From Thermodesulfobacteriota bacterium (GTDB lineage: Bacteria > Desulfobacterota > BSN033 > UBA1163): DNA of 8,168 nucleotides. How positions within the stretch are numbered: the stretch's first letter is position 1; each line of letters starts with the position of its first letter. The position numbers were made by a program, and so were the translations under genes. This document shows, one piece after another, positions 1 to 8,103 of the stretch. Where the stretch lies: NCBI GenBank assembly GCA_030024065.1, contig JASEIE010000186.1, positions 1-8,168 on the forward strand, in the 5' to 3' direction. The notes under the pieces were generated by a model. That model was not told the DNA's origin. It searched no databases and was given only the letters and a program-made list of their open reading frames with translations.

Positions 1-567
1 CGGCTCTGTAACGAGGAGACAGAAGTCACTTCCTTTGACGGTTTCAATTACGGGACAGGCTGTCCCTGGAGGAGCATCGAGGATGACGGTTTTATCCTTT
101 TGAATCCTCTCCTTTACCTTCCGGATCAGTGGAGAAGCCATGGGTTCTCCAACGTTCAACACTCCATTAACAAATGGAATTCCATCTGCACTCCCTTCCT
201 GAACAATGCCGATTTCCCTCTCCACTTCAAAAATGGCCTTTTCAGGGCACAAATAGTAACAGGCACCGCACGCATGGCAGAGTTCATCAAAAACCAGAAC
301 ATTTTTTAAAATGACAGCAATCGCATGATATTCACAGACCTGAGCACATTTGCCGCAATAAGTACATTTCGATTCATCAATACGGGGGACCGGAATTCCT
401 ACCGAGGTCACCTGGTGAATGGTGGGGGATAAAAAAAGGTGGGAGTTAGGTTCCTCCACATCGCAATCAATTAGTTGGACAGTCCCTTTTGATAGAGAGA
501 GAGCTAAATTGACTGCAATAGTGGTCTTTCCGGTCCCCCCTTTTCCGCTCGCAATAGAGATGATCAT
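1..567 (-). CDS. MinD-superfamily P-loop ATPase with inserted ferredoxin domain (3' end outside window)
   Basis: The first 189 residues are visible; the gene continues past the left edge. It opens with a deviant Walker A loop, SGKGGTGKTT (residues 7-16), followed by LIDCDVEEPN (32-41), both typical of the MinD/ParA/Mrp superfamily. Two ferredoxin motifs are inserted: C68-x2-C71-x2-C74-x3-C78, and C97-x2-C100-x2-C103-x3-C107 followed by Pro, enough for two [4Fe-4S] clusters. A Walker B-like VILDAPPG follows. This order matches COG1149. Members are cytoplasmic, often come in adjacent pairs, and occur in the orange-protein (ORP) clusters of sulfate reducers; their exact reaction is not established. 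The first motif ends in Cys-Glu rather than Cys-Pro. The ATG at 567 is preceded by AAGGA with a 9-base spacer, and that site overlaps the stop codon of the MBL gene upstream, so the two are probably co-translated. Family assignment is secure; the role is unknown. Confidence 0.93.
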   Translation of the reverse strand, partial: MIISIASGKGGTGKTTIAVNLALSLSKGTVQLIDCDVEEPNSHLFLSPTIHQVTSVGIPVPRIDESKCTYCGKCAQVCEYHAIAVILKNVLVFDELCHACGACYYLCPEKAIFEVEREIGIVQEGSADGIPFVNGVLNVGEPMASPLIRKVKERIQKDKTVILDAPPGTACPVIETVKGSDFCLLVTEP

Positions 568-579
568 CTGGATTTTTCC

Positions 580-1752
580 TTATGCTTTGAACTCAATGGT
601 ATCCCCATTGCCCAGGTAGGCTATATCTTTGGACCTGAATCGTGCCGTACCCTTTACGACCGGATAGCCTGCTTCGATAAACTTTCTTGCTGTTACAATT
701 CCTGTACAATGGTTGCACCCGACCTTCTCGAAGCCATAATTTTTAAATGCGATGACCAAGTCATCATACTTCGGGTCCCAGTCTTCGAAAGGTGAGATGT
801 GGAGGCCTCCGTAGACTCCATGGAGCTTCTCGAACTTAATGGTCCTGCGAGCGGTCTCAGCAAACTGGATGATACTTTGGTGGCAGCACCCGGTCACAGA
901 GACCAAGCCAGCCCCCTGGACGTTAAAGTATAGAGACTCTTCTCCGTAAACCCGGCAAATAATAGGGATAGCAAATGTATAGATTGCACAGCCAGGGAAA
1001 AGGGGAGTTAATCCAGGCTTACTGACAATTATCTTGCCTCTATAGCCGCTGTCCTTAATGTACTGTAACCCCTCCTGGTAAAACCCCTCTGGAACATATA
1101 AAGGTATTTCGGGATTGTACTTCAAACTCACCGGCAATCCCCAGAAGTGATCGAAATGTTCGTGGGAAATGATGAGACAGTCAATCTCCTTTTTGCTGAG
1201 CATCTTGTCAATCCCTTCGCGTTTGAAACATTCGTCCGTCCAGTCATACGCCCAACCGCTGTCCAGAAGGATTTTCTTCCGTGATCCGTCTAAGAGCTCC
1301 ACATCGATAAGGCAAGCATATCCCCCTGCGTTCTCAGGATGGACGGAGTTCTCCATCTGGAACTGCCAGGCTTTATCCAATTTGTCGGGAAGAAATTGCT
1401 TGATGTGCTTTATGCCGTTTTCATAAGAACCCTTACCCAGCTGTCCTTTCACATCGGCAAAAGGAGGCCAGTTATAGGTATACTGATTAACCAGCAACCC
1501 TCCAGATCCTTTGATGTCGCCCATCAACACCTTGTTATCAAACCAACTCGTTTCGCTGATGTTCGTGATTTTTACGCTCTTGCATTCTCCAATATCGATA
1601 TTCTTGGATGTGACCTTTGAAAAATGTCGCTTCCGCCAGGGGCCATAGGAATAGATGCCCATCGCACCGATAGCACCGGCAGCTCCACCCACAGCAAGCC
1701 CCTTGACGAAGTCACGCCTGCTAACACCTTGTTTTTCTTCTTCCGTTACCAT
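580..1752 (-). CDS. Tat-signal metallo-beta-lactamase-fold protein, COG1237-like
   Basis: A 390-residue protein. The N-terminus carries a twin-arginine motif, SRRDF (residues 11-15), then an Ala/Gly-rich hydrophobic stretch (about 18-34) with no clear AxA cleavage site. It is therefore probably exported folded and may stay anchored in the membrane. The MBL fold is shown by LLDSG (162-166), the metal-binding HEHFDH (197-202), TGCCH (287-291), GGLH (315-318) and a late CNHCTG (346-351). The GGxH and HCTG signatures are typical of COG1237, the group containing an archaeal enzyme annotated in methanopterin synthesis; the substrate here cannot be inferred. A GTG at 1770 in the same frame was rejected as start because its codons contain the Shine-Dalgarno sequence itself (AAAGGAGGT, 7 bases before the ATG at 1752). 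The gene ends 12 bases before the MinD-type ATPase and follows two membrane-protein genes. MBL fold is certain, Tat export likely, reaction unknown. Confidence 0.92.
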   Translation of the reverse strand: MVTEEEKQGVSRRDFVKGLAVGGAAGAIGAMGIYSYGPWRKRHFSKVTSKNIDIGECKSVKITNISETSWFDNKVLMGDIKGSGGLLVNQYTYNWPPFADVKGQLGKGSYENGIKHIKQFLPDKLDKAWQFQMENSVHPENAGGYACLIDVELLDGSRKKILLDSGWAYDWTDECFKREGIDKMLSKKEIDCLIISHEHFDHFWGLPVSLKYNPEIPLYVPEGFYQEGLQYIKDSGYRGKIIVSKPGLTPLFPGCAIYTFAIPIICRVYGEESLYFNVQGAGLVSVTGCCHQSIIQFAETARRTIKFEKLHGVYGGLHISPFEDWDPKYDDLVIAFKNYGFEKVGCNHCTGIVTARKFIEAGYPVVKGTARFRSKDIAYLGNGDTIEFKA

Positions 1753-1759
1753 CTTGTTA

Positions 1760-1764
1760 CCTCC
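1760..1764 (-). promoter_or_regulatory. Shine-Dalgarno site fixing the start of the MBL gene
   Basis: GGAGG inside AAAGGAGGT, with a 7-base spacer to the ATG at 1752. It lies within the codons that would follow an in-frame GTG at 1770, so that upstream start is unlikely. Confidence 0.85.
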
Positions 1765-1808
1765 TTTCACTCAAACAATGATCCTGGATCCTGCCAAACG
1801 TTTGGGAC

Positions 1809-1842
1809 AAAATGGGTATTTTTTTAAGTGAAAACCCATTTT
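1809..1842. other. Inverted repeat at the end of the 38-aa gene, possible weak attenuator
   Basis: Perfect 9-base arms (AAAATGGGT at 1809-1817 and its complement at 1834-1842) flank a 16-base AT-rich loop. The hairpin covers the last codons and the stop of the small membrane peptide and lies before the MBL gene. The outer A:T pairs mean either strand would show GGGT/ACCC followed by four U residues, so a weak terminator or an RNA-processing hairpin are both possible. There is no strong U tract, and the downstream gene has its own excellent ribosome site. Confidence 0.35.
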
Positions 1843-1940
1843 AATTTTCCCAAAACGGGTAGAAGCCAGATGGTTACGAAGTAAATCACGATACCGAGAA
1901 CAATTCCTACCAAAATCCCGATCTTATATTGTCCACTCAT
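1824..1940 (-). CDS. 38-residue single-span membrane peptide
   Basis: A short ORF that length cut-offs would miss. The peptide starts MSGQYKIG, runs through one hydrophobic segment (about residues 7-30: Ile, Val, Leu, Gly, then TIWLLPVL) and ends with a basic, aromatic tail, KLKWVFT. The case for a real gene is strong: AAAGGAGG lies exactly 7 bases before the ATG, the same arrangement as at neighbouring genes; the ORF fills an otherwise empty gap; and it starts 29 bases after the stop of the large membrane protein. The two are probably made together, and the peptide may be an accessory subunit of that protein, as tiny single-span subunits often are in respiratory and transport complexes. This role is inferred from position and shape only. 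No family is recognised. Confidence 0.75.
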   Translation of the reverse strand: MSGQYKIGILVGIVLGIVIYFVTIWLLPVLGKLKWVFT

Positions 1941-1947
1941 GTCGTCG

Positions 1948-1952
1948 CCTCC
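1948..1952 (-). promoter_or_regulatory. Shine-Dalgarno site of the 38-aa peptide
   Basis: GGAGG within AAAGGAGG, with a 7-base spacer to the ATG at 1940. It is the main evidence that this very small ORF is translated. Confidence 0.8.
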
Positions 1953-1969
1953 TTTCGTAAACTGGTTTT

Positions 1970-3223
1970 CTACGCTCTGACTTTCTTCCATCCTGGCCAG
2001 TTATCCATGAACCAGTGATTGATCAACATTAAATTGATAAGCCAGATCGTTGGAATCATCGGAAACTGCTCGGGCTGGGCATAACCCTTCTGGGTTCCCA
2101 AGGTCAAATGGCCAATGTTGTAGTAGATCCAGTAAACCAACATCCCACCAAAAATGGCAATGAGGGTTCGTATCAACCAGTTTACAGGGATGCTAAACTT
2201 CTTGGGCCAGTTGCCACAATAGAATGTCAAGAACAGAGCCGGAAGCAGAAAAAAGACCATGGTCTCCCCCACATGGAGCCATCGCCAATCCGGAGAAAAA
2301 TCCATGCGGGTTCCGCGGATGGCTGGCCCCCACCAAAGTTCCTGAGCGAAATAGAGGAATAGGAAGAAACACCAGGCAATCGCAATGATACCGAAAAAAC
2401 CAACCAGCCTTCTCGTGGTATCATGCTTGATGACTTTGAATGGATACCGTTCCCATATCGACTCGGTCAACCAAACCGTGATGGTGCAACACATGATCCA
2501 GGCTACGTGGAAGTTTCCACTGACCGTGTTGGCGAACTTCTCCCAGTAAGGCGGGGCGATCGAAGCGAAGTACTGCCAGGGATAGTAAAGAATCCCCATA
2601 TGAGGGTGCATGGTGCAAAGATAAACGATCGTTCCGATAAAAAAAGTAACGATGAGTACGGTTGTACCCAAAACAGGTTGTCTCAAATTCTGCCAAGGAG
2701 CCATCTCCATGGCTACAGGCCAGGAGGGGCTCAGCCAGGAGGCGATGGCTGCAAACATTAAGCAGGCGAGGGAAGCATACTCGATCGCAAAGAATTCAGT
2801 AACCCCCGGAAGTTTTGTGGTTTGAGCCGGGTTAAAATAAGCCATGGCAAAATTTCCAAGAATCCCTTCAAAGAAGACCTTGGTAATAACCAGAAGGACA
2901 ACCACCGTGATAGCTGTCATCACAATGCCTTTTACTACAGGATTCCAGCTTTCAAGCTGATGACGCTTGAATGGCCAGTAGTAAAAAAGATAAACCTGCC
3001 AGATCAGGACAATAAGGATCCACCGCGTATACATGTAACCGACATAAGGGGTATACATCCGCAGCCACCCGCGCCGGTCTTGAAAGATCCACCAACTGAT
3101 GTAAAAAACGGCCAGCAGAAACAAGATATTCACGATCTGCGGCCAGGGCGCAGGCCATCTCGGGACCAGCTTTCGTTCTTCCAAATACCCTTCTCCATAA
3201 CGTTCTCCAATTTTTTCTTCCAT
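1970..3223 (-). CDS. Trp/Tyr-rich integral membrane protein with about ten membrane segments, unknown function
   Basis: A 417-residue protein. It has a charged N-terminus of about 25 residues and then hydrophobic segments at roughly 28-50, 66-86, 98-121, 142-165, 185-206, 238-257, 272-297, 319-337, 350-371 and 388-407. It is unusually rich in Trp, Tyr and Phe (for example SWWIFQ, LFYYWPF, ELWWGP, LVYWIYY). Several histidines lie in or near membrane segments: MHPH about 206-208, NFH about 239, the HVGE motif about 317, NIGH about 372 and NHW about 403. These could bind a metal, heme or quinone, but that is speculation. No transporter signature was recognised. A TTG at 3229 in the same frame is only one base from the AGGAGG site, so the ATG at 3223, with a 7-base spacer, is the better start. 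It lies between the 107-aa protein and the 38-aa peptide and is probably the membrane core of whatever the operon builds. Confidence 0.9.
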   Translation of the reverse strand: MEEKIGERYGEGYLEERKLVPRWPAPWPQIVNILFLLAVFYISWWIFQDRRGWLRMYTPYVGYMYTRWILIVLIWQVYLFYYWPFKRHQLESWNPVVKGIVMTAITVVVLLVITKVFFEGILGNFAMAYFNPAQTTKLPGVTEFFAIEYASLACLMFAAIASWLSPSWPVAMEMAPWQNLRQPVLGTTVLIVTFFIGTIVYLCTMHPHMGILYYPWQYFASIAPPYWEKFANTVSGNFHVAWIMCCTITVWLTESIWERYPFKVIKHDTTRRLVGFFGIIAIAWCFFLFLYFAQELWWGPAIRGTRMDFSPDWRWLHVGETMVFFLLPALFLTFYCGNWPKKFSIPVNWLIRTLIAIFGGMLVYWIYYNIGHLTLGTQKGYAQPEQFPMIPTIWLINLMLINHWFMDNWPGWKKVRA

Positions 3224-3230
3224 GTCCAAA

Positions 3231-3235
3231 CCTCC
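3231..3235 (-). promoter_or_regulatory. Shine-Dalgarno site fixing the membrane-protein start
   Basis: GGAGG preceded by A, with a 7-base spacer to the ATG at 3223. It rules out the in-frame TTG at 3229, which would be one base away. Confidence 0.85.
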
Positions 3236-3252
3236 TTCCTTTCAGAAGATCA

Positions 3253-3576
3253 TCAACACAATTTTCTCTGTTTTCCTATTTCACCTCCTTTTCTACTATC
3301 CTTATTACTTTGAACCTGGGATGAAAATATTTCTTTAGCGATTTCCAACTTACTTTTCCCTTTGGTCTCGATCCCCTGCTTGATCGCTTCATCCATGAGC
3401 AGGCTACCAGCCTCCGAAAGCAGGGGGTAGCACTTTTCAAAAGACTCAAAATAATCCTCTTTCTCCTCCACGGACTCTCTGGATTCACACGAATCGGCCA
3501 TTTCATTAAAGAATCGAATCGCTTCTGTAAAAAAATCTTTTGTCAGAAAATCTCTCCTGCTTTTATCCATTTTCAT
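3253..3576 (-). CDS. 107-residue charged protein with SRRDF opening, unknown function
   Basis: A small, mostly charged and helical-looking protein starting MKMDKSRRDFLTKDFF. The SRRDF motif resembles a Tat leader and matches the one in the MBL protein of the same operon. Here, however, it is followed by amphipathic sequence (FFTEAIRFFNEMADS) rather than a hydrophobic core, so export by Tat is unlikely. The middle is acidic (ESVEEKEDYFESFEK) and the end is basic and finishes with Cys. Cysteines lie in ADSC, EKCY and at the last position. A longer reading from 3726 overlaps the upstream gene and was rejected: AGGAG with a 7-base spacer points to the ATG at 3576. A second ATG, at 3570, is less well placed. 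It starts 25 bases after the 340-aa gene and stops 29 bases before the membrane protein. It could be a cytoplasmic chaperone or adaptor for the membrane complex, but that is only a guess. Confidence 0.8.
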   Translation of the reverse strand: MKMDKSRRDFLTKDFFTEAIRFFNEMADSCESRESVEEKEDYFESFEKCYPLLSEAGSLLMDEAIKQGIETKGKSKLEIAKEIFSSQVQSNKDSRKGGEIGKQRKLC

Positions 3577-3601
3577 CAGCCCTCTCCTGTTTGACCGGGA
3601 C

Positions 3602-4624
3602 TCAATAATCCCTAAAACAGCAATGCTGGATTTCTCTCGCTGGTGGAAATGACCAGGAGGAAGCCCTCCACCAGCTTGGATTAATCCATGGACACTCCTT
3701 TTCGGGAGGATTTTCAAAATAGTCAACCAGAACTTCGTCCTTTTTTAATGAAAGACGAATAGATTGCAAAAATGCCTCTTTCAATCCCCTTGAATCGATT
3801 GGAGGCAGTGGGATTGATCGTATTAAAACTCCTGCCTCTATGGTTCTCCCGTGGACATCCGGTTCATGCGCCTCAACCACTTGGTTGAATTCACATATAT
3901 GATAAATAGTACCCGGATATTCAGTTAATCCTAATCCAAAGGGGATTGTTTTATGAACATAGCAAAAACCTAACAAAAGCTTGTCATAGAAACCCCAGCT
4001 CAACTCCCACCCCGGAACATTCCGAGCCTTTGCTTCTTCGGGGATGACGTCCATTACTTGTCTATAGTCAGTTTTAACAAGAGGGCCGTTTTTGACGATT
4101 TCGATCCAACGGTCCTGTGATGAAATGGTGAGTAAGGCGAAGTTTAACCCTTTATCAAAAGCGAGATGAAATTTTCCCACTGTGAAAAGGGATTCATGAA
4201 TTTCATTCTGTTTCTCGAAAAGTGGAGTCCCAGTATGATCGAAATAGGGTCCGAGACGAACCTCTCTTTCAATAAAAGCAAAATCATCGAAAGATGGTTC
4301 TTCAGGAGAGGGGTAATATCGAACTATAAATTCAGCTCTCACTGAAGGATTAATAATAGGATTTGGAATATCGACAATACTTGGTTCTTTGTGAAAATAT
4401 TCTATGTGTATGAGTTCTAATAGATAGGCCCCTTTCTGTTCTTTTGTCCAAAGGTACCATCCCGGCTTCTGGCTGATCAGACGGCTTATCTTGGTGAAAC
4501 CAATTCTGTGGTGGGCCTGCTCATCGAGAAACAGAGGTATAAACGTATCCTCCATGACCCTTCGAACCAGATCAATATCATCACTATAGAATTCGTTATG
4601 ATTCTCAGTCGGTTTTGGCACCAT
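3602..4624 (-). CDS. Unrecognised 340-residue soluble protein
   Basis: No signal peptide or membrane segment is visible, and no family was recognised. The sequence looks globular, with alternating strand-like and acidic stretches, many aromatic residues and several Pro-rich turns (IVDIPNPIINPSV about 83-95, IRSIPLPPIDSRG about 269-281). There is no Walker motif, CxxC pair or clear catalytic signature. Cysteines are scattered, with two adjacent near the C-terminus (QHCC). The in-frame TTG at 4633 has no ribosome site. The ATG at 4624 has only a closely placed GAGG, so the start is less certain than for its neighbours. It is the first gene after a 103-base gap and stops 25 bases before the 107-aa gene, so it probably opens the operon that leads to the membrane protein and the MinD-type ATPase. 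The reading frame is long and clean, so it is clearly coding. Confidence 0.8.
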   Translation of the reverse strand: MVPKPTENHNEFYSDDIDLVRRVMEDTFIPLFLDEQAHHRIGFTKISRLISQKPGWYLWTKEQKGAYLLELIHIEYFHKEPSIVDIPNPIINPSVRAEFIVRYYPSPEEPSFDDFAFIEREVRLGPYFDHTGTPLFEKQNEIHESLFTVGKFHLAFDKGLNFALLTISSQDRWIEIVKNGPLVKTDYRQVMDVIPEEAKARNVPGWELSWGFYDKLLLGFCYVHKTIPFGLGLTEYPGTIYHICEFNQVVEAHEPDVHGRTIEAGVLIRSIPLPPIDSRGLKEAFLQSIRLSLKKDEVLVDYFENPPEKECPWINPSWWRASSWSFPPAREIQHCCFRDY

Positions 4625-4727: not shown

Positions 4728-5396
4728 TCACAGTCTCAAGTCCTCCCTAATTCTCTTTCTGGGTCCTCCGTCTCTTGCAGTGGTCCAATCCTTGATCGGG
4801 ATGATCTCCTCATACCGGTCCAACTGTCCAAGCTCCTTTAACCGATCGATGATGAGCTGCCAGGCGCAGTCAGTTTCTCTGTCCACCTCACACTTTCCAT
4901 TCGTCGACCCACCACAGGGACCATTGAGTAAGCTCTTGGCACACCTCGCAATCGGACAGATTCCTCCGGTCTGATCAAGGATGCAGGTCCCGCAACCCTG
5001 ACACCGCTCAGCCCAAACTCCCTGTTCCAGTGCCACTCCTAAAAAAGTTGTATTCACAGCCGGTAACACCGGCTTCGTCCGATACTTTTCCGCTACATAT
5101 TGTACCCCTGCACCACATGCCATTGACAAGATTGCTTCATAGTCTCCGACAAAGGGACGGACCTGATCAATGTATTCAGGGTCACACTGACGCTCAAGGG
5201 TATGCTCCCGAACCTCTATCTCCTCTCTCTCCTTTGCACGGAAGAGCCTCAACTCCGACGCCAGTGCTCCAACCTCCCTCTCTCCACCAACAGCACAGAC
5301 CGTTACACATTCGTTACAGCCAAGAAGGAGAACCTTTTTATAAGGCTTGATCATCTGCAGGATCTCATCAAGTGATTTGCGATTTGCTACAATCAT
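4728..5396 (-). CDS. metV: MetV-like methylenetetrahydrofolate reductase C-terminal-domain protein
   Basis: A 222-residue cytoplasmic protein. The N-terminal half contains LLLGCNECVTVC (Cys 27, 30, 34) and SMACGAGVQ (Cys 94). The C-terminal half holds the diagnostic cysteine-rich segment: CQGCGTC (132-138), GGICPIARC (145-152), LLNGPCGGS (157-164), GKCEV (168-171 and following) and CAW (177). This is the MTHFR_C/MetV family. In acetogens and sulfate reducers MetV binds MetF and helps reduce methylene-tetrahydrofolate in the Wood-Ljungdahl pathway, through Fe-S and possibly zinc sites. No metF adjoins it within this window; the next gene downstream is unrelated, so its partner is probably elsewhere. 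A TTG at 5399 directly precedes the ATG at 5396; GAGG with a 5-base spacer favours the ATG. It begins 18 bases after the radical SAM stop codon, so the two are probably co-transcribed. Confidence 0.9.
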   Translation of the reverse strand: MIVANRKSLDEILQMIKPYKKVLLLGCNECVTVCAVGGEREVGALASELRLFRAKEREEIEVREHTLERQCDPEYIDQVRPFVGDYEAILSMACGAGVQYVAEKYRTKPVLPAVNTTFLGVALEQGVWAERCQGCGTCILDQTGGICPIARCAKSLLNGPCGGSTNGKCEVDRETDCAWQLIIDRLKELGQLDRYEEIIPIKDWTTARDGGPRKRIREDLRL

Positions 5397-5414
5397 CAAG
5401 GCCTCTATTTATAT

Positions 5415-6368
5415 TTAATCGGTCGCAACATTCTCGTAATAACCACGGTGCTCATACATCCGATAATGGACGCCCCCTTCTTTCAGGAGTTTCTCCAAAT
5501 ATTTCACAACCTCATCTAAATGCAGTCCCAGAGCCTTTGAAATATCTTCTGCCGTACAGGGCCTTCTCTTTATGAGATTGAGGATTTCCGAATCCTTAAC
5601 CGAGTTAAATTTATCTCCTGCAGGTGCGGCAAACTCGGAGATAATCTCCGCCTTATCTCCCAATTTTTTCCTTATTTCTTCAAGCTGAGTTGTTGTTAAG
5701 GGATAAGCAAATTCTTCAGCAGGGGGCCTGACCGTGGTATTTAATTGAATCTTATCAGGCTCGATTTTGTCGATGACCTCTTTGAACTTTTCGATCTCGT
5801 CTCTACCGTCGTTTACACCCCGGCAAAAGAGAATTTCCAGCCAGATCTGGCCTCGATACTGATTTCGAAATTGAATGAGGCCTGAAATAATTTCCTCAAT
5901 TCCTAAGGACGCGTGGGGTCTGTTAATGTACTCAAAAATGGCTGGAGTGATTGCATCAAGGGATGGGAGGACGACATCGGCTTCCGATAGATCCCTTCTT
6001 ACCTCATTTAACGAGAGAAGAGAGCTATTGGTTAAGATGGCTATGGGAATAGAGGTGATCTCTTTAATCCTTCGAATTATTTCTCCAATGTTGGTATTTA
6101 ATGTCGGCTCACCAGAGCCAGACAGGGTTATATAATCTGGCTTTTTTCCCAAGGCCAACAGACAGATTTCCAATTCTCCCTGGATGTCTTCCGGAGATAT
6201 ATAGAATCGTCGAGATATCATTTTGTGAGTTGTTCTTCCTAAATCGCAATAGATACAATCAAAAGTGCAGGTTTTATATGGGACAAGATCAACTCCCAAG
6301 GATCTTCCCAATCTCCTTGAGGGCACCGGGCCAAAGATATATTTCTGTTCGACTGAAGACTTAGCCAT
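5415..6368 (-). CDS. Radical SAM protein, COG0731-like, with C-terminal winged helix
   Basis: A 317-residue protein. It opens with FGPVPSRRLGRSLGVD (12-27), followed by the cluster-binding C34-x3-C38-x2-C41 (KTCTFDCIYCDLGRTT) and the SAM-site SGSGEPTL (83-90), all typical of COG0731. That group is named after the archaeal wyosine-tRNA enzyme, but bacterial members have no assigned reaction, so the tRNA role should not be carried over. Residues about 258-310 form a winged-helix-like tail (ILNLIKRRPCTAEDISKALGL and on), probably for binding a nucleic acid or protein. An ORF start at 6470 is possible on frame alone but would run 110 bases into yqeB. The ATG at 6368, with GGAG 7 bases upstream and an 8-base overlap with the yqeB stop, fits much better and begins where the family normally begins. 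The overlap implies coupled translation with yqeB. Confidence 0.93.
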   Translation of the reverse strand: MAKSSVEQKYIFGPVPSRRLGRSLGVDLVPYKTCTFDCIYCDLGRTTHKMISRRFYISPEDIQGELEICLLALGKKPDYITLSGSGEPTLNTNIGEIIRRIKEITSIPIAILTNSSLLSLNEVRRDLSEADVVLPSLDAITPAIFEYINRPHASLGIEEIISGLIQFRNQYRGQIWLEILFCRGVNDGRDEIEKFKEVIDKIEPDKIQLNTTVRPPAEEFAYPLTTTQLEEIRKKLGDKAEIISEFAAPAGDKFNSVKDSEILNLIKRRPCTAEDISKALGLHLDEVVKYLEKLLKEGGVHYRMYEHRGYYENVATD

Positions 6369-7176
6369 TAAAGTGCTCCAGTATGGCTTGTAAGACCCCG
6401 CCGGAAATAGTCCTGGCTTTGTCTGAGATCGTATGACAATGGGCCATAATTCCCCGGGGATCGACATCACTCAGTTTCATGCCCTTCCAAACTTCGTTTC
6501 CATCTCGAAGTAAACCCCGAATGACTCCTGCAATCCTGGATCGAACCTCAACATTTCCTATCATTCCCACTTTTTCATTTGCCCGTACACCATCACCGAT
6601 CTTTTTAAAAGCTTTGAAATCCCCAGCCCTCGGAGCCCGTATCACCCTTTCCTCTGTATAGCCATCGATGGAGCCCGGGATTCCCGTATTTGGCTCGGCT
6701 TCCCCGTTGGCAACGATTCTTCCGAGATTGTGGCCGCGGTTTGTCTCGATAACCAGATGAACATCCCTCCCTGCATGGAATCCGGGTCCAAGGCCGATGA
6801 CCAGAAGGGCATCCGTGATCTTTGTGCCCAGATTCTTTTTGGCCAGAGTGGCATCGATGAGAACATCTGGTTTTAAGAAGTCCTTAACCTTTGCCTCCGG
6901 ATCTATCAGGATGGGAATTTCCCCCTTTCTCCACACCTCTGAGATACGGTCTGGTGACTCAACCCTTTTTGCAGCTATTCCCTCCACTTCCTTCTCCGAA
7001 TCGAAGATTGCCTCTGAAAAGGCCACTTCTCTCCTCACAGCATGAGGATTCGAGGTTTCAGTCATACAGACTTTAAAATGGCAGGAAGCAAGCCGATGAG
7101 CAACACCTGTTGCCATCTCCCCTGCACCTCTGATTAGGATTACCAGGTCATTCAGTTTCTTATTCATGCCGATCAA
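6361..7176 (-). CDS. yqeB: YqeB-family selenium-dependent molybdenum hydroxylase maturation protein
   Basis: A 271-residue cytoplasmic protein of normal family length. The N-terminus has a Rossmann-type turn, IRGAGEMATG (about 15-24), then the family's TETSNPHAVRREVAFSEA and LIDATLAKKN segments. Later come GLGPGFHAG, ETNRGHNLGR, ANGEAEPNTG and the C-terminal DVDPRG and ISGGVLQAIL. This pattern matches YqeB (EF2563 family), which is found with selenium-dependent molybdenum hydroxylases and is thought to help prepare their cofactor; the biochemistry is not settled. None of the usual companions (XdhC-like proteins, MocA, the hydroxylase) is in this window. The TTG at 7176 overlaps the TGA of the gene before it (TTGA) and has AAGGA nine bases upstream, which suggests translational coupling. 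The ATG at 7167 is the alternative start. The 3' end overlaps the radical SAM start by 8 bases. Confidence 0.92.
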   Translation of the reverse strand: MIGMNKKLNDLVILIRGAGEMATGVAHRLASCHFKVCMTETSNPHAVRREVAFSEAIFDSEKEVEGIAAKRVESPDRISEVWRKGEIPILIDPEAKVKDFLKPDVLIDATLAKKNLGTKITDALLVIGLGPGFHAGRDVHLVIETNRGHNLGRIVANGEAEPNTGIPGSIDGYTEERVIRAPRAGDFKAFKKIGDGVRANEKVGMIGNVEVRSRIAGVIRGLLRDGNEVWKGMKLSDVDPRGIMAHCHTISDKARTISGGVLQAILEHFNG

Positions 7177-7388
7177 TTCCGGAGATCCTTCAATTCTTTA
7201 AGCAGCCTCTTCTGATCGACGCCGAATAGGATGCAGGCCATCCCGAGTGTCTGGATCTTAAAGCCCGACCTTTCCAGGCAATGTCCACCAAAATATCTTT
7301 GCATGATCTTGGTCATCCGGGGATATTCTTTGACAATATCTCTGATCAGTTTGTATTCCAATGAGGCATTCATAGCTGAATATGACAT
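7173..7388 (-). CDS. DUF1858-like small protein
   Basis: A protein of 71 residues (66 if it starts at the second ATG). The pattern LIRDIVKEYPRMTKIMQRYFGGHC, then FKIQTLGMACILFGVD and LLKELKDL, matches the small helical DUF1858 fold, also seen at the N-terminus of ScdA-type proteins: an 'x-I-hydrophobic-x-x-YP' helix, a Gly-x-x-Cys turn and a 'hydrophobic-GVD-x-x-x-LL' tail. The usual second Cys right after the turn (CxxC) is absent (HCLERS), although another Cys follows at MAC. The family has no firm function and often sits beside redox and Fe-S proteins. The start is unclear: AAAGGAGG abuts the ATG at 7388 with no spacer, and is 15 bases from the ATG at 7373. It is the first gene of the block running through yqeB to metV, and its stop overlaps the yqeB start. 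Confidence 0.78.
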   Translation of the reverse strand: MSYSAMNASLEYKLIRDIVKEYPRMTKIMQRYFGGHCLERSGFKIQTLGMACILFGVDQKRLLKELKDLRN

Positions 7389-7430
7389 CCTCCTTTAATT
7401 CTCTATTAATACTGAAAATAGTTTTTAATC

Positions 7431-7469
7431 GACAGGCAGGGAGCCCGCAGAGGGACTCCCCTACATGTC
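7431..7469. repeat. Imperfect palindrome (GACA...AGGGAG/CTCCCCT...TGTC)
   Basis: Outer arms GACA (7431) and TGTC (7469) and inner arms around AGGGAGCCC and GGGACTCCCCT form an imperfect hairpin. It lies between the thioesterase and the DUF1858-like gene, beside a second palindrome. The GC-rich, imperfect design is typical of dispersed intergenic repeats in bacteria. It has no U tract, so it is not a standard terminator, though it may protect RNA ends. Confidence 0.55.
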
Positions 7470-7475
7470 TATTTC

Positions 7476-7515
7476 TGGATTCCCGTTTACACGGGAATGA
7501 CAGAATGGGAATCCA
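7476..7515. repeat. dRS3-like palindromic repeat overlapping the thioesterase 3' end
   Basis: ATTCCCGT (7479-7486) and ACGGGAAT (7491-7498) are perfect 8-base arms around the loop TTAC. A second arm, GGGAATCCA at 7507-7515, is the complement of TGGATTCCC at 7476-7484, so two alternative hairpins are possible. The core fits the ATTCCC-N8-GGGAAT pattern known from Neisseria dRS3 repeats; similar elements occur in many genomes. It contains the thioesterase stop codon. Confidence 0.65.
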
Positions 7516-7945
7516 AAGGGAGGTTGGGTGAATCTGACCTCATATACTTGGCCTCTGCACTTGCCACCTTCTTCCCATCCACCAAAGCCTTCCCTTCTAA
7601 AATGAACATTTCATGGAACTGGTCAACAACCTTCGCCTCTAACTTAACAACTGTTCCTGTTCGAATGGGGGTAGAATACTTGATCGACAATCTTCCCGTG
7701 AGAGCAGGGATATCCTTCATTAAGAGGCAGTGGGTCATCGCAGAATCCAACAGGGTGGCTATAATTCCTCCATGAATGATTCCCGAATAGCCCTCAAACT
7801 TCGGATCCGCAAAAAAATATCCAAAAACGGAGCCGTCTTCTCGCTTGTGAAACTTGAGTCGCAGTCCTGTCCCATTAGTCGAACCACAGGCAAAGCAATT
7901 CTGATGAAAATTACTTTCAATTTGCTCTTTTTGAGTAGGTAACAT
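7487..7945 (-). CDS. Hotdog-fold thioesterase, PaaI-like
   Basis: A 152-residue cytoplasmic protein of usual size for the family. NCFACGSTNGTGLRLKF (16-32) is the common opening of this group, and GIIHGGIIATLLDSAM (55-70) is the hotdog-helix signature with the HGG substrate-site turn. TGRLSIKYSTPIRTG (83-97) and the EGKALVDGKKVASAEAKY region (117-134) complete the fold. Such enzymes hydrolyse acyl-CoA thioesters; the acyl group cannot be told from sequence. A longer reading from 8056 translates a GC-rich palindrome into low-complexity Pro/Gly sequence and was rejected. The ATG at 7945 starts at the family's normal N-terminus, though its ribosome site is weak. The last residues, SHSVIPV, and the stop codon come from a palindromic repeat, so the original C-terminus may have ended differently. 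It appears transcriptionally separate from its neighbours. Confidence 0.9.
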   Translation of the reverse strand: MLPTQKEQIESNFHQNCFACGSTNGTGLRLKFHKREDGSVFGYFFADPKFEGYSGIIHGGIIATLLDSAMTHCLLMKDIPALTGRLSIKYSTPIRTGTVVKLEAKVVDQFHEMFILEGKALVDGKKVASAEAKYMRSDSPNLPLDSHSVIPV

Positions 7946-7968
7946 CAGGTTCAAAGGTCTATTGCCAT

Positions 7969-8051
7969 CCGTGATCCGTTTCCCCCACCTTTTTCCTCCC
8001 CCACCTGCGGGGGGAGGAGAGGAGGGGGGCAGACCCGGACACGAATCACGG
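7969..8051. repeat. Long GC-rich imperfect palindrome, dispersed-repeat type
   Basis: Outer arms CCGTGATCCGT (7969-7979) and ACGAATCACGG (8041-8051) match at 10 of 11 positions as inverted repeats. They enclose pyrimidine-rich and purine-rich stretches that pair imperfectly, with a perfect core of CCTCCCCC (7995-8002) and GGGGGAGG (8010-8017) around a 7-base loop. The nested design suggests a MITE-like or REP-like element. It fills the space before the thioesterase start and has no coding signature of its own. Confidence 0.65.
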
Positions 8052-8103
8052 TTCACATGATTTATTGATTAGGCGGCCTCCAATTCACGGCGTTTGGCAT
8101 AAG

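Follow-up and report, generated by a model that had tools for sequence, protein, structure and literature searches.

We describe a conserved gene module on contig JASEIE010000186.1 of a Thermodesulfobacteriota bacterium (assembly GCA_030024065.1), of which a stretch of 8,168 nucleotides, hereafter the window, was analysed. The minus strand of the window carries six open frames in the order U340, SRR, MEM, TM38, MBL and a MinD-like ATPase. The same six same-strand genes, in this order, with gaps of 12 to 71 bases and ribosome sites 7 bases before the ATG, had been reported in an initial annotation of this DNA, and all of these were recovered; the membrane protein with about ten spans and the Tat-signal, COG1237-like MBL protein named there are likewise borne out below. 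The gaps measure 25 bases between U340 and SRR, 29 between SRR and MEM, 29 between MEM and TM38, 71 between TM38 and MBL and 12 between MBL and the ATPase, and the ribosome sites read GGAGG for MEM, TM38 and MBL and AGGAG for SRR, with 7 bases between each and its ATG. The conserved unit consists of four of these families, MEM, MBL, SRR and U340, which are inherited together, recur as a set across many anaerobic bacteria and are present in distant phyla. The features of the locus are as follows.

3602..4624, minus strand: U340, 340 amino acids (aa), the free-standing form of a domain that most relatives carry joined to a CobW GTPase
3605..3625, minus strand: C-terminal HCCFRDY of U340, matching in position the Cys/His tails of other free-standing U340 proteins
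3253..3576, minus strand: SRR, 107 aa, with an SRRDF motif near the N-terminus, followed across loci with an iterated profile
1970..3223, minus strand: MEM, 417 aa, a ten-span membrane protein of a superfamily without a Pfam model
2600..2608, minus strand: H206-P-H208 of MEM in a predicted periplasmic loop, from conservation in the alignment and the tree set
2264..2275, minus strand: H317-V-G-E320 of MEM, from conservation across the superfamily
1824..1940, minus strand: TM38, a 38-aa single-span peptide, by comparison with longer MEMs the split-off eleventh span of MEM
580..1752, minus strand: MBL, 390 aa, a metallo-beta-lactamase-fold protein exported via twin-arginine translocation (Tat), COG1237-like by profile and phmmer matches
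1147..1164, minus strand: metal-binding motif H197-E-H199-F-D201-H202 of MBL, with ligands invariant in aligned MBLs
1645..1752, minus strand: Tat signal region of MBL (SRRDF), with PF10518 and TIGR01409 over their cut-offs
1..567, minus strand: MinD-like ATPase with a 4Fe-4S insert, truncated at the window edge (base 1), by CbiA/ParA and 4Fe-4S matches

Genome contigs were scanned with a MEM alignment, and the best 80 of the 138 loci found, many of them from metagenome-assembled genomes (MAGs), make up the locus set; 52 of the 80 have more than 5 kb on both sides. A second sample comprises 297 genomes of one phylum, 28 of which have a MEM match, 18 of these belonging to subfamilies I and II (I/II); five of these also contribute to the set of 80 loci. 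The subfamily labels were set by us, partly by E-value and partly by module presence, and the tree of the superfamily is independent of them. One protein (L094) matches the MEM profile at E 9e-52 yet falls with a third group in this tree, so that the E-value alone is no separator. Two further MEM matches (G543, G797) lie within the range of subfamily II.

The pairing of MEM with MBL is nearly invariable. MBL lies immediately downstream of MEM in 79 of the 80 loci, the exception (L072) ending inside MEM at a contig end, and it adjoins MEM in 17 of the 18 MEM-I/II genomes of the second sample, the contig of the remaining one (G041) again ending inside MEM. A Tat signal in the window MBL exceeds the cut-offs of PF10518 (25.0 bits) and TIGR01409 (29.5 bits), Lactamase_B likewise matches above its cut-off, and phmmer relates the protein to the PDB chains 2p4z (E 4e-14), 7dck (1e-10) and 3h3e (3e-5), all of which we take to be COG1237 proteins. 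The metal ligands H197, H199, D201 and H202 do not vary in any of the 19 MBLs aligned from subfamilies I and II, nor do the motifs HxHxDH, GCCH and NHCTG, which are presumably typical of COG1237; both Arg of the Tat motif are invariant in the same 19 proteins, although L035 has RK. Module MBLs differ from other COG1237-like proteins in that they are Tat-exported, possess an additional N-terminal region and are tied to MEM. The initial annotation had proposed a membrane core together with a metal-dependent protein sent outside, and this part is supported by the loci.

The third family, U340, becomes intelligible through its relatives. Using hhalign, the window protein and its free-standing relatives align with the N-terminal half of a 622-aa family of MEM neighbours (probability 99.6). 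The C-terminal half of this family matches PF02492 in both of the fusions that were scanned (9e-41 and 1e-37). This half likens the fusions to the G3E GTPase metallochaperones of the COG0523/CobW type, such as the nitrile hydratase activator, ZigA and YjiA, with which they share the cobW domain and a CXCC motif, present after the P-loop in 63 of 64 U340-CobW proteins. CXCC is described as common to all COG0523 members in PMC2770081. The fusions differ from these GTPases in a N-terminal domain of about 310 residues without a Pfam match, and the window protein consists of this domain only: it has no GTPase domain, neither Pfam nor NCBIfam yields a match for it at E 0.1, its sequence matches nothing in the PDB significantly, and its predicted model (mean predicted local distance difference test score, pLDDT, 84.1; predicted template modelling score, pTM, 0.86) has no convincing PDB fold match. 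At least two Cys lie within the last 45 residues in 10 of the 11 free-standing U340s examined, with none in L057, a count made without a composition control.

U340 domains were found in 73 of the 80 MEM loci with a profile that, like that of SRR, was derived from the same loci in which it was counted, the SRR profile from near hits only. Among the seven loci without U340, four have a contig end nearby, hardly any sequence is available upstream in L003 and L004, and L015 has only a 34-bit match. In the 297 genomes, U340 occurs in 20; all 18 MEM-I/II genomes have it, and 18 of the 20 U340 genomes have MEM-I/II (hypergeometric p 6e-27, uncorrected for relatedness). The two U340 genomes without MEM-I/II are G175, whose contig begins within the gene, and G253. 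At L116 8408-10375, a U340-CobW fusion is encoded in a genome that lacks a MEM match.

SRR has no hydrophobic stretch on reading, no Pfam match over cut-off and no significant PDB sequence match. In 67 of 89 loci an iterated profile places a relative near MEM, on the same strand and no more than 3.5 kb away, and it finds none elsewhere in these loci; the motif, where read, is mostly SRR or SRK-x-F near the start. A helix-turn-helix gene lies upstream of SRR in two relatives of the window (L118 717-1184 and L120 9502-9951), the latter with an HTH_17 match (as L090:3304-3753).

These four families remain together in different arrangements. The window reads U340-SRR-MEM-MBL and most subfamily I loci read SRR-MEM-MBL-U340/CobW, while subfamily II shows MBL-MEM-U340-SRR or MBL-MEM-SRR-U340, keeping all four genes, with a free-standing U340, in 6 of the 6 loci read (L092, L100-L104). 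Because the families are kept together through such reshuffled orders, we regard them as a functional unit, and this is our best argument. Pairwise distances of MEM, MBL and U340-CobW also correlate over 64 loci (r 0.93, 0.87 and 0.85), values reached by 0 of 500 permutations, which could also come from shared ancestry alone. In a Pseudodesulfovibrio MAG, one contig bears two complete modules of different clades (L031, L071), and all three genes of each group with the same neighbours. The labels of module contigs comprise sulfate reducers, Syntrophaceae, purple bacteria (Rhodospira, Roseospira, Rhodobium) and gut genera (Bilophila, Sutterella, Parasutterella). Counting all classes, the MEM profile has matches in 35 of 149 genomes from the family of a Desulfovibrio, in 6 of 67 from that of a Parasutterella, in 12 of 199 from the order to which Rhodospira belongs and in 4 of 199 from a Bacillota sample, one of the last being subfamily I. 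In a contig labelled Bilophila, a type II hammerhead ribozyme match is found at L067 626-691.

The two remaining frames of the six do not belong to this unit in the manner first supposed. The initial annotation envisaged a single six-gene membrane complex with MinD/Fe-S, ATP-driven assembly, for which it can be cited that the genes share a strand and that, in the window, MBL and the ATPase are separated by 12 bases. The ATPase frame has CbiA/ParA and 4Fe-4S matches, but it is not conserved with the other genes as a COG1149 cluster would require: clear ATPase matches (79-251 bits) occur in only 2 of the 80 loci (L019, L025), weak ones (22-27 bits) in three further loci, and among the near relatives of the window L001 and L003 have none, L002 reaches 27 bits and L120 32 bits only. 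ATP- and Fe-S-dependent input to the module is thus not upheld, and we give the six-gene complex hardly any credence. The NTPase that truly co-occurs with the module is the CobW GTPase fused to U340. TM38, which had been listed as a component in its own right, is the eleventh span of MEM, split off in the lineage of the window and a few others, since in an alignment of 40 relatives many longer MEMs end in an additional span that resembles it and since phmmer with the peptide matches the MEM frame itself in L089 and L091. By length (at least 459 aa) the C-terminal extension is present in 69 of the 80 MEMs, and TM38 is a separate open frame in L002, L003, L015 and L036.

Further upstream, the gene nearest to U340, 103 bases away, encodes a MetV-like methylenetetrahydrofolate reductase C-terminal protein (PF12225). 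The minus-strand stretch that holds it (4728-8056) also carries genes for a radical SAM protein and YqeB (TIGR03309), together with a DUF1858 match under its cut-off and a PaaI-like thioesterase frame named by inspection. A relative of the radical SAM protein is present in four other MEM loci (L002, L012, L025, L028).

MEM itself is predicted to contain ten helices of at least 17 residues (mean pLDDT 84.6, pTM 0.87). It lacks a Pfam match over cut-off and an NCBIfam transporter match, and the PDB yields neither a significant match to its sequence nor a convincing fold match to its model. In JGI and UniRef some MEM-I and group III proteins bear the name 'AAT family amino acid transporter', which no PDB match supports; neither MEM nor the group II and III proteins scanned have a Pfam or NCBIfam transporter match. 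A tree of 44 superfamily proteins groups subfamilies I and II with support 1.0. H206 and H208 are both His in 65 of 65 alignment rows; in the tree set, 21 of the 22 MEM-I/II proteins keep H206 and all 22 keep H208, compared with 0 and 3, respectively, of the 22 group III proteins. E148 and R314 mark I/II in the same way (1 and 5 of 22 in group III), and the whole superfamily holds H317 (44 of 44) and largely E320 (37 of 44). The conserved residues H206, H208, H239, H317 and E320 are predicted to face the periplasm, which is the destination of MBL.

Such residues raise the possibility that MEM-I/II is itself a membrane metalloenzyme, with a metal held on its periplasmic side by H206, H208, H317 and acidic residues close to them, and with MBL either providing its substrate or taking it away. 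The restriction of HxH, E148 and R314 to the module-bearing clade, being mostly absent in group III, speaks for this, as does a very strong conservation with many invariant W, H, R and Q. However, U340/CobW should act in the cytoplasm and the residues are predicted to lie outside, albeit from a weak positive-inside signal (K+R 16 inside, 8 outside), and the sequence and fold searches made revealed no significant similarity to a known membrane enzyme. We consider a metalloenzyme role rather unlikely.

Group III shows the superfamily outside the module. The initial annotation had taken a wide occurrence of MEM homologues without MBL as an argument against its grouping; such homologues do occur in this distant group and not in subfamilies I and II. 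Its own profile (E <1e-180) finds group III in 12 of the 297 genomes. MBL or SRR appears in none of the 18 group III loci read (three from one genome, G461), the 11 genomes with group III and without I/II have no U340 match, and the U340-CobW fusion about 7 kb away in L115 is part of a separate module of that genome. Seven of the 18 loci have an acyl-CoA ligase (L107, L109, L110, L112), a thiolase (L163), a thiolase with an acyl-CoA dehydrogenase (L105) or a hydroxyacyl-CoA with an acyl-CoA dehydrogenase (L114) within three genes. A methylmalonyl-CoA mutase (L158), a B12-binding protein (L160) and a succinate dehydrogenase/fumarate reductase flavoprotein (L161) are found beside others, and the other eight loci have no such gene as far as read. 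The acyl-CoA neighbours suggest, and do not prove, carboxylate transport in the superfamily. They also admit a different reading, in which MEM is quinone- or proton-linked and works with flavin dehydrogenases, I/II being a variant: L105, L114 and L161 would be in line with it, but acyl-CoA ligases are neighbours equally often, no cofactor motif was seen, and no such dehydrogenase was recognised among the families present in at least 4 of the 80 I-type loci, only some of which were scanned. We judge this reading highly improbable. Group III MEM (e.g., L108 8898-10187) is in its own right a widespread and strongly conserved protein, AAT-named without profile support and often near acyl-CoA genes.

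Regulators that recur in the 80 loci comprise a GntR/FCD family (22 loci), two PAS-type families (21 and 6) and a sigma-54-type family (14), with the GntR/FCD and PAS types assigned from a scan of one member each; ExbB, ExbD and TonB families together occur in 13 of the 80 and a chemoreceptor-like family in 6 (the ExbD, sigma-54, chemoreceptor and second PAS names being given by inspection). Altogether, these genes are consistent with induction of the system by an organic compound from outside the cell. The TonB-system families, the Cys/His tails of U340 and the link of COG0523 proteins to zinc homeostasis reported in PMC2770081 could instead indicate metal scavenging, in which TonB would drive metal uptake, MEM would carry the metal or a chelate of it and U340-CobW would distribute it inside the cell. 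Such a system is improbable in our view, given that the recurring regulators are of the GntR/FCD, PAS and sigma-54 types, with no Fur or Zur as far as read, that 67 of the 80 loci lack any TonB family, that group III lies beside acyl-CoA genes and that no cobalamin riboswitch was found in 22 loci.

We find it quite conceivable, if still short of probable, that in this module an exported enzyme loaded with a metal docks on a membrane protein, the two probably hydrolysing an organic nutrient and importing the product. U340, alone or fused to a CobW-type GTPase, would be a maturation factor that brings metal to a cytoplasmic client, most likely MBL before its export. MBL would be a metalloenzyme exported in its folded state via Tat, and would dock on the periplasmic face of MEM, the site of the extra HxH/Glu residue set of I/II, while SRR may be a small accessory protein, perhaps connected with the Tat step. 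Because COG0523-type factors are cytoplasmic and Tat substrates leave the cell interior already folded, the simplest order of events would be that MBL receives its metal inside, is then exported by Tat and finally docks on MEM. An organic nutrient would most likely be hydrolysed in the periplasm, and the product imported through MEM. A regulated nutrient system fits the GntR/FCD (22/80) and TonB (13/80) families, and the acyl-CoA neighbours of group III (7/18 loci) fit a carboxylate-related transporter superfamily. The transport role of MEM is the weakest step of the proposal.

Several observations weigh against this nutrient-import proposal. There is no direct sign of transport or of MEM-MBL contact, and the 59-94% identity of MEMs to the window protein is more than a transporter would usually show. 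Reading the surroundings of the TonB genes revealed no recognisable TonB receptor. The iterated profile did not find SRR in 22 of the 89 loci, only two of which (L004, L058) have less than 300 bases upstream. One genome (G253) possesses U340-CobW with no MEM found. The window lacks the CobW half, and the cobW profile, over its cut-off in all 18 genomes, is matched weakly (23.6 and 20.4 bits) in G006 and G010, which have a free-standing U340, so that GTP-driven loading is probably not general.

The novelty of the gene system lies in its central families, for which the libraries and papers searched gave no description, and no new chemistry is claimed; the initial annotation knew of no described system with this set, which agrees with the literature searched. 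For three of the four families (MEM, U340 and SRR), the proteins scanned gave neither a Pfam nor an NCBIfam match over cut-off, and MEM bears a transporter name without support in public databases. It is conceivable, though less likely than not, that MEM-I/II, MBL, SRR and U340 make up an undescribed metallosystem of membrane and periplasm in anaerobes, in which MEM would represent a new fold with a periplasmic HxH site and a Tat-exported metalloenzyme as its partner, and U340 a new metallochaperone domain that matures this partner before export, alone or via its fused CobW GTPase. If true, this would extend the CobW-type metallochaperones to an exported client, and it would provide a handle on a membrane superfamily that is also found beside the acyl-CoA genes of anaerobes.

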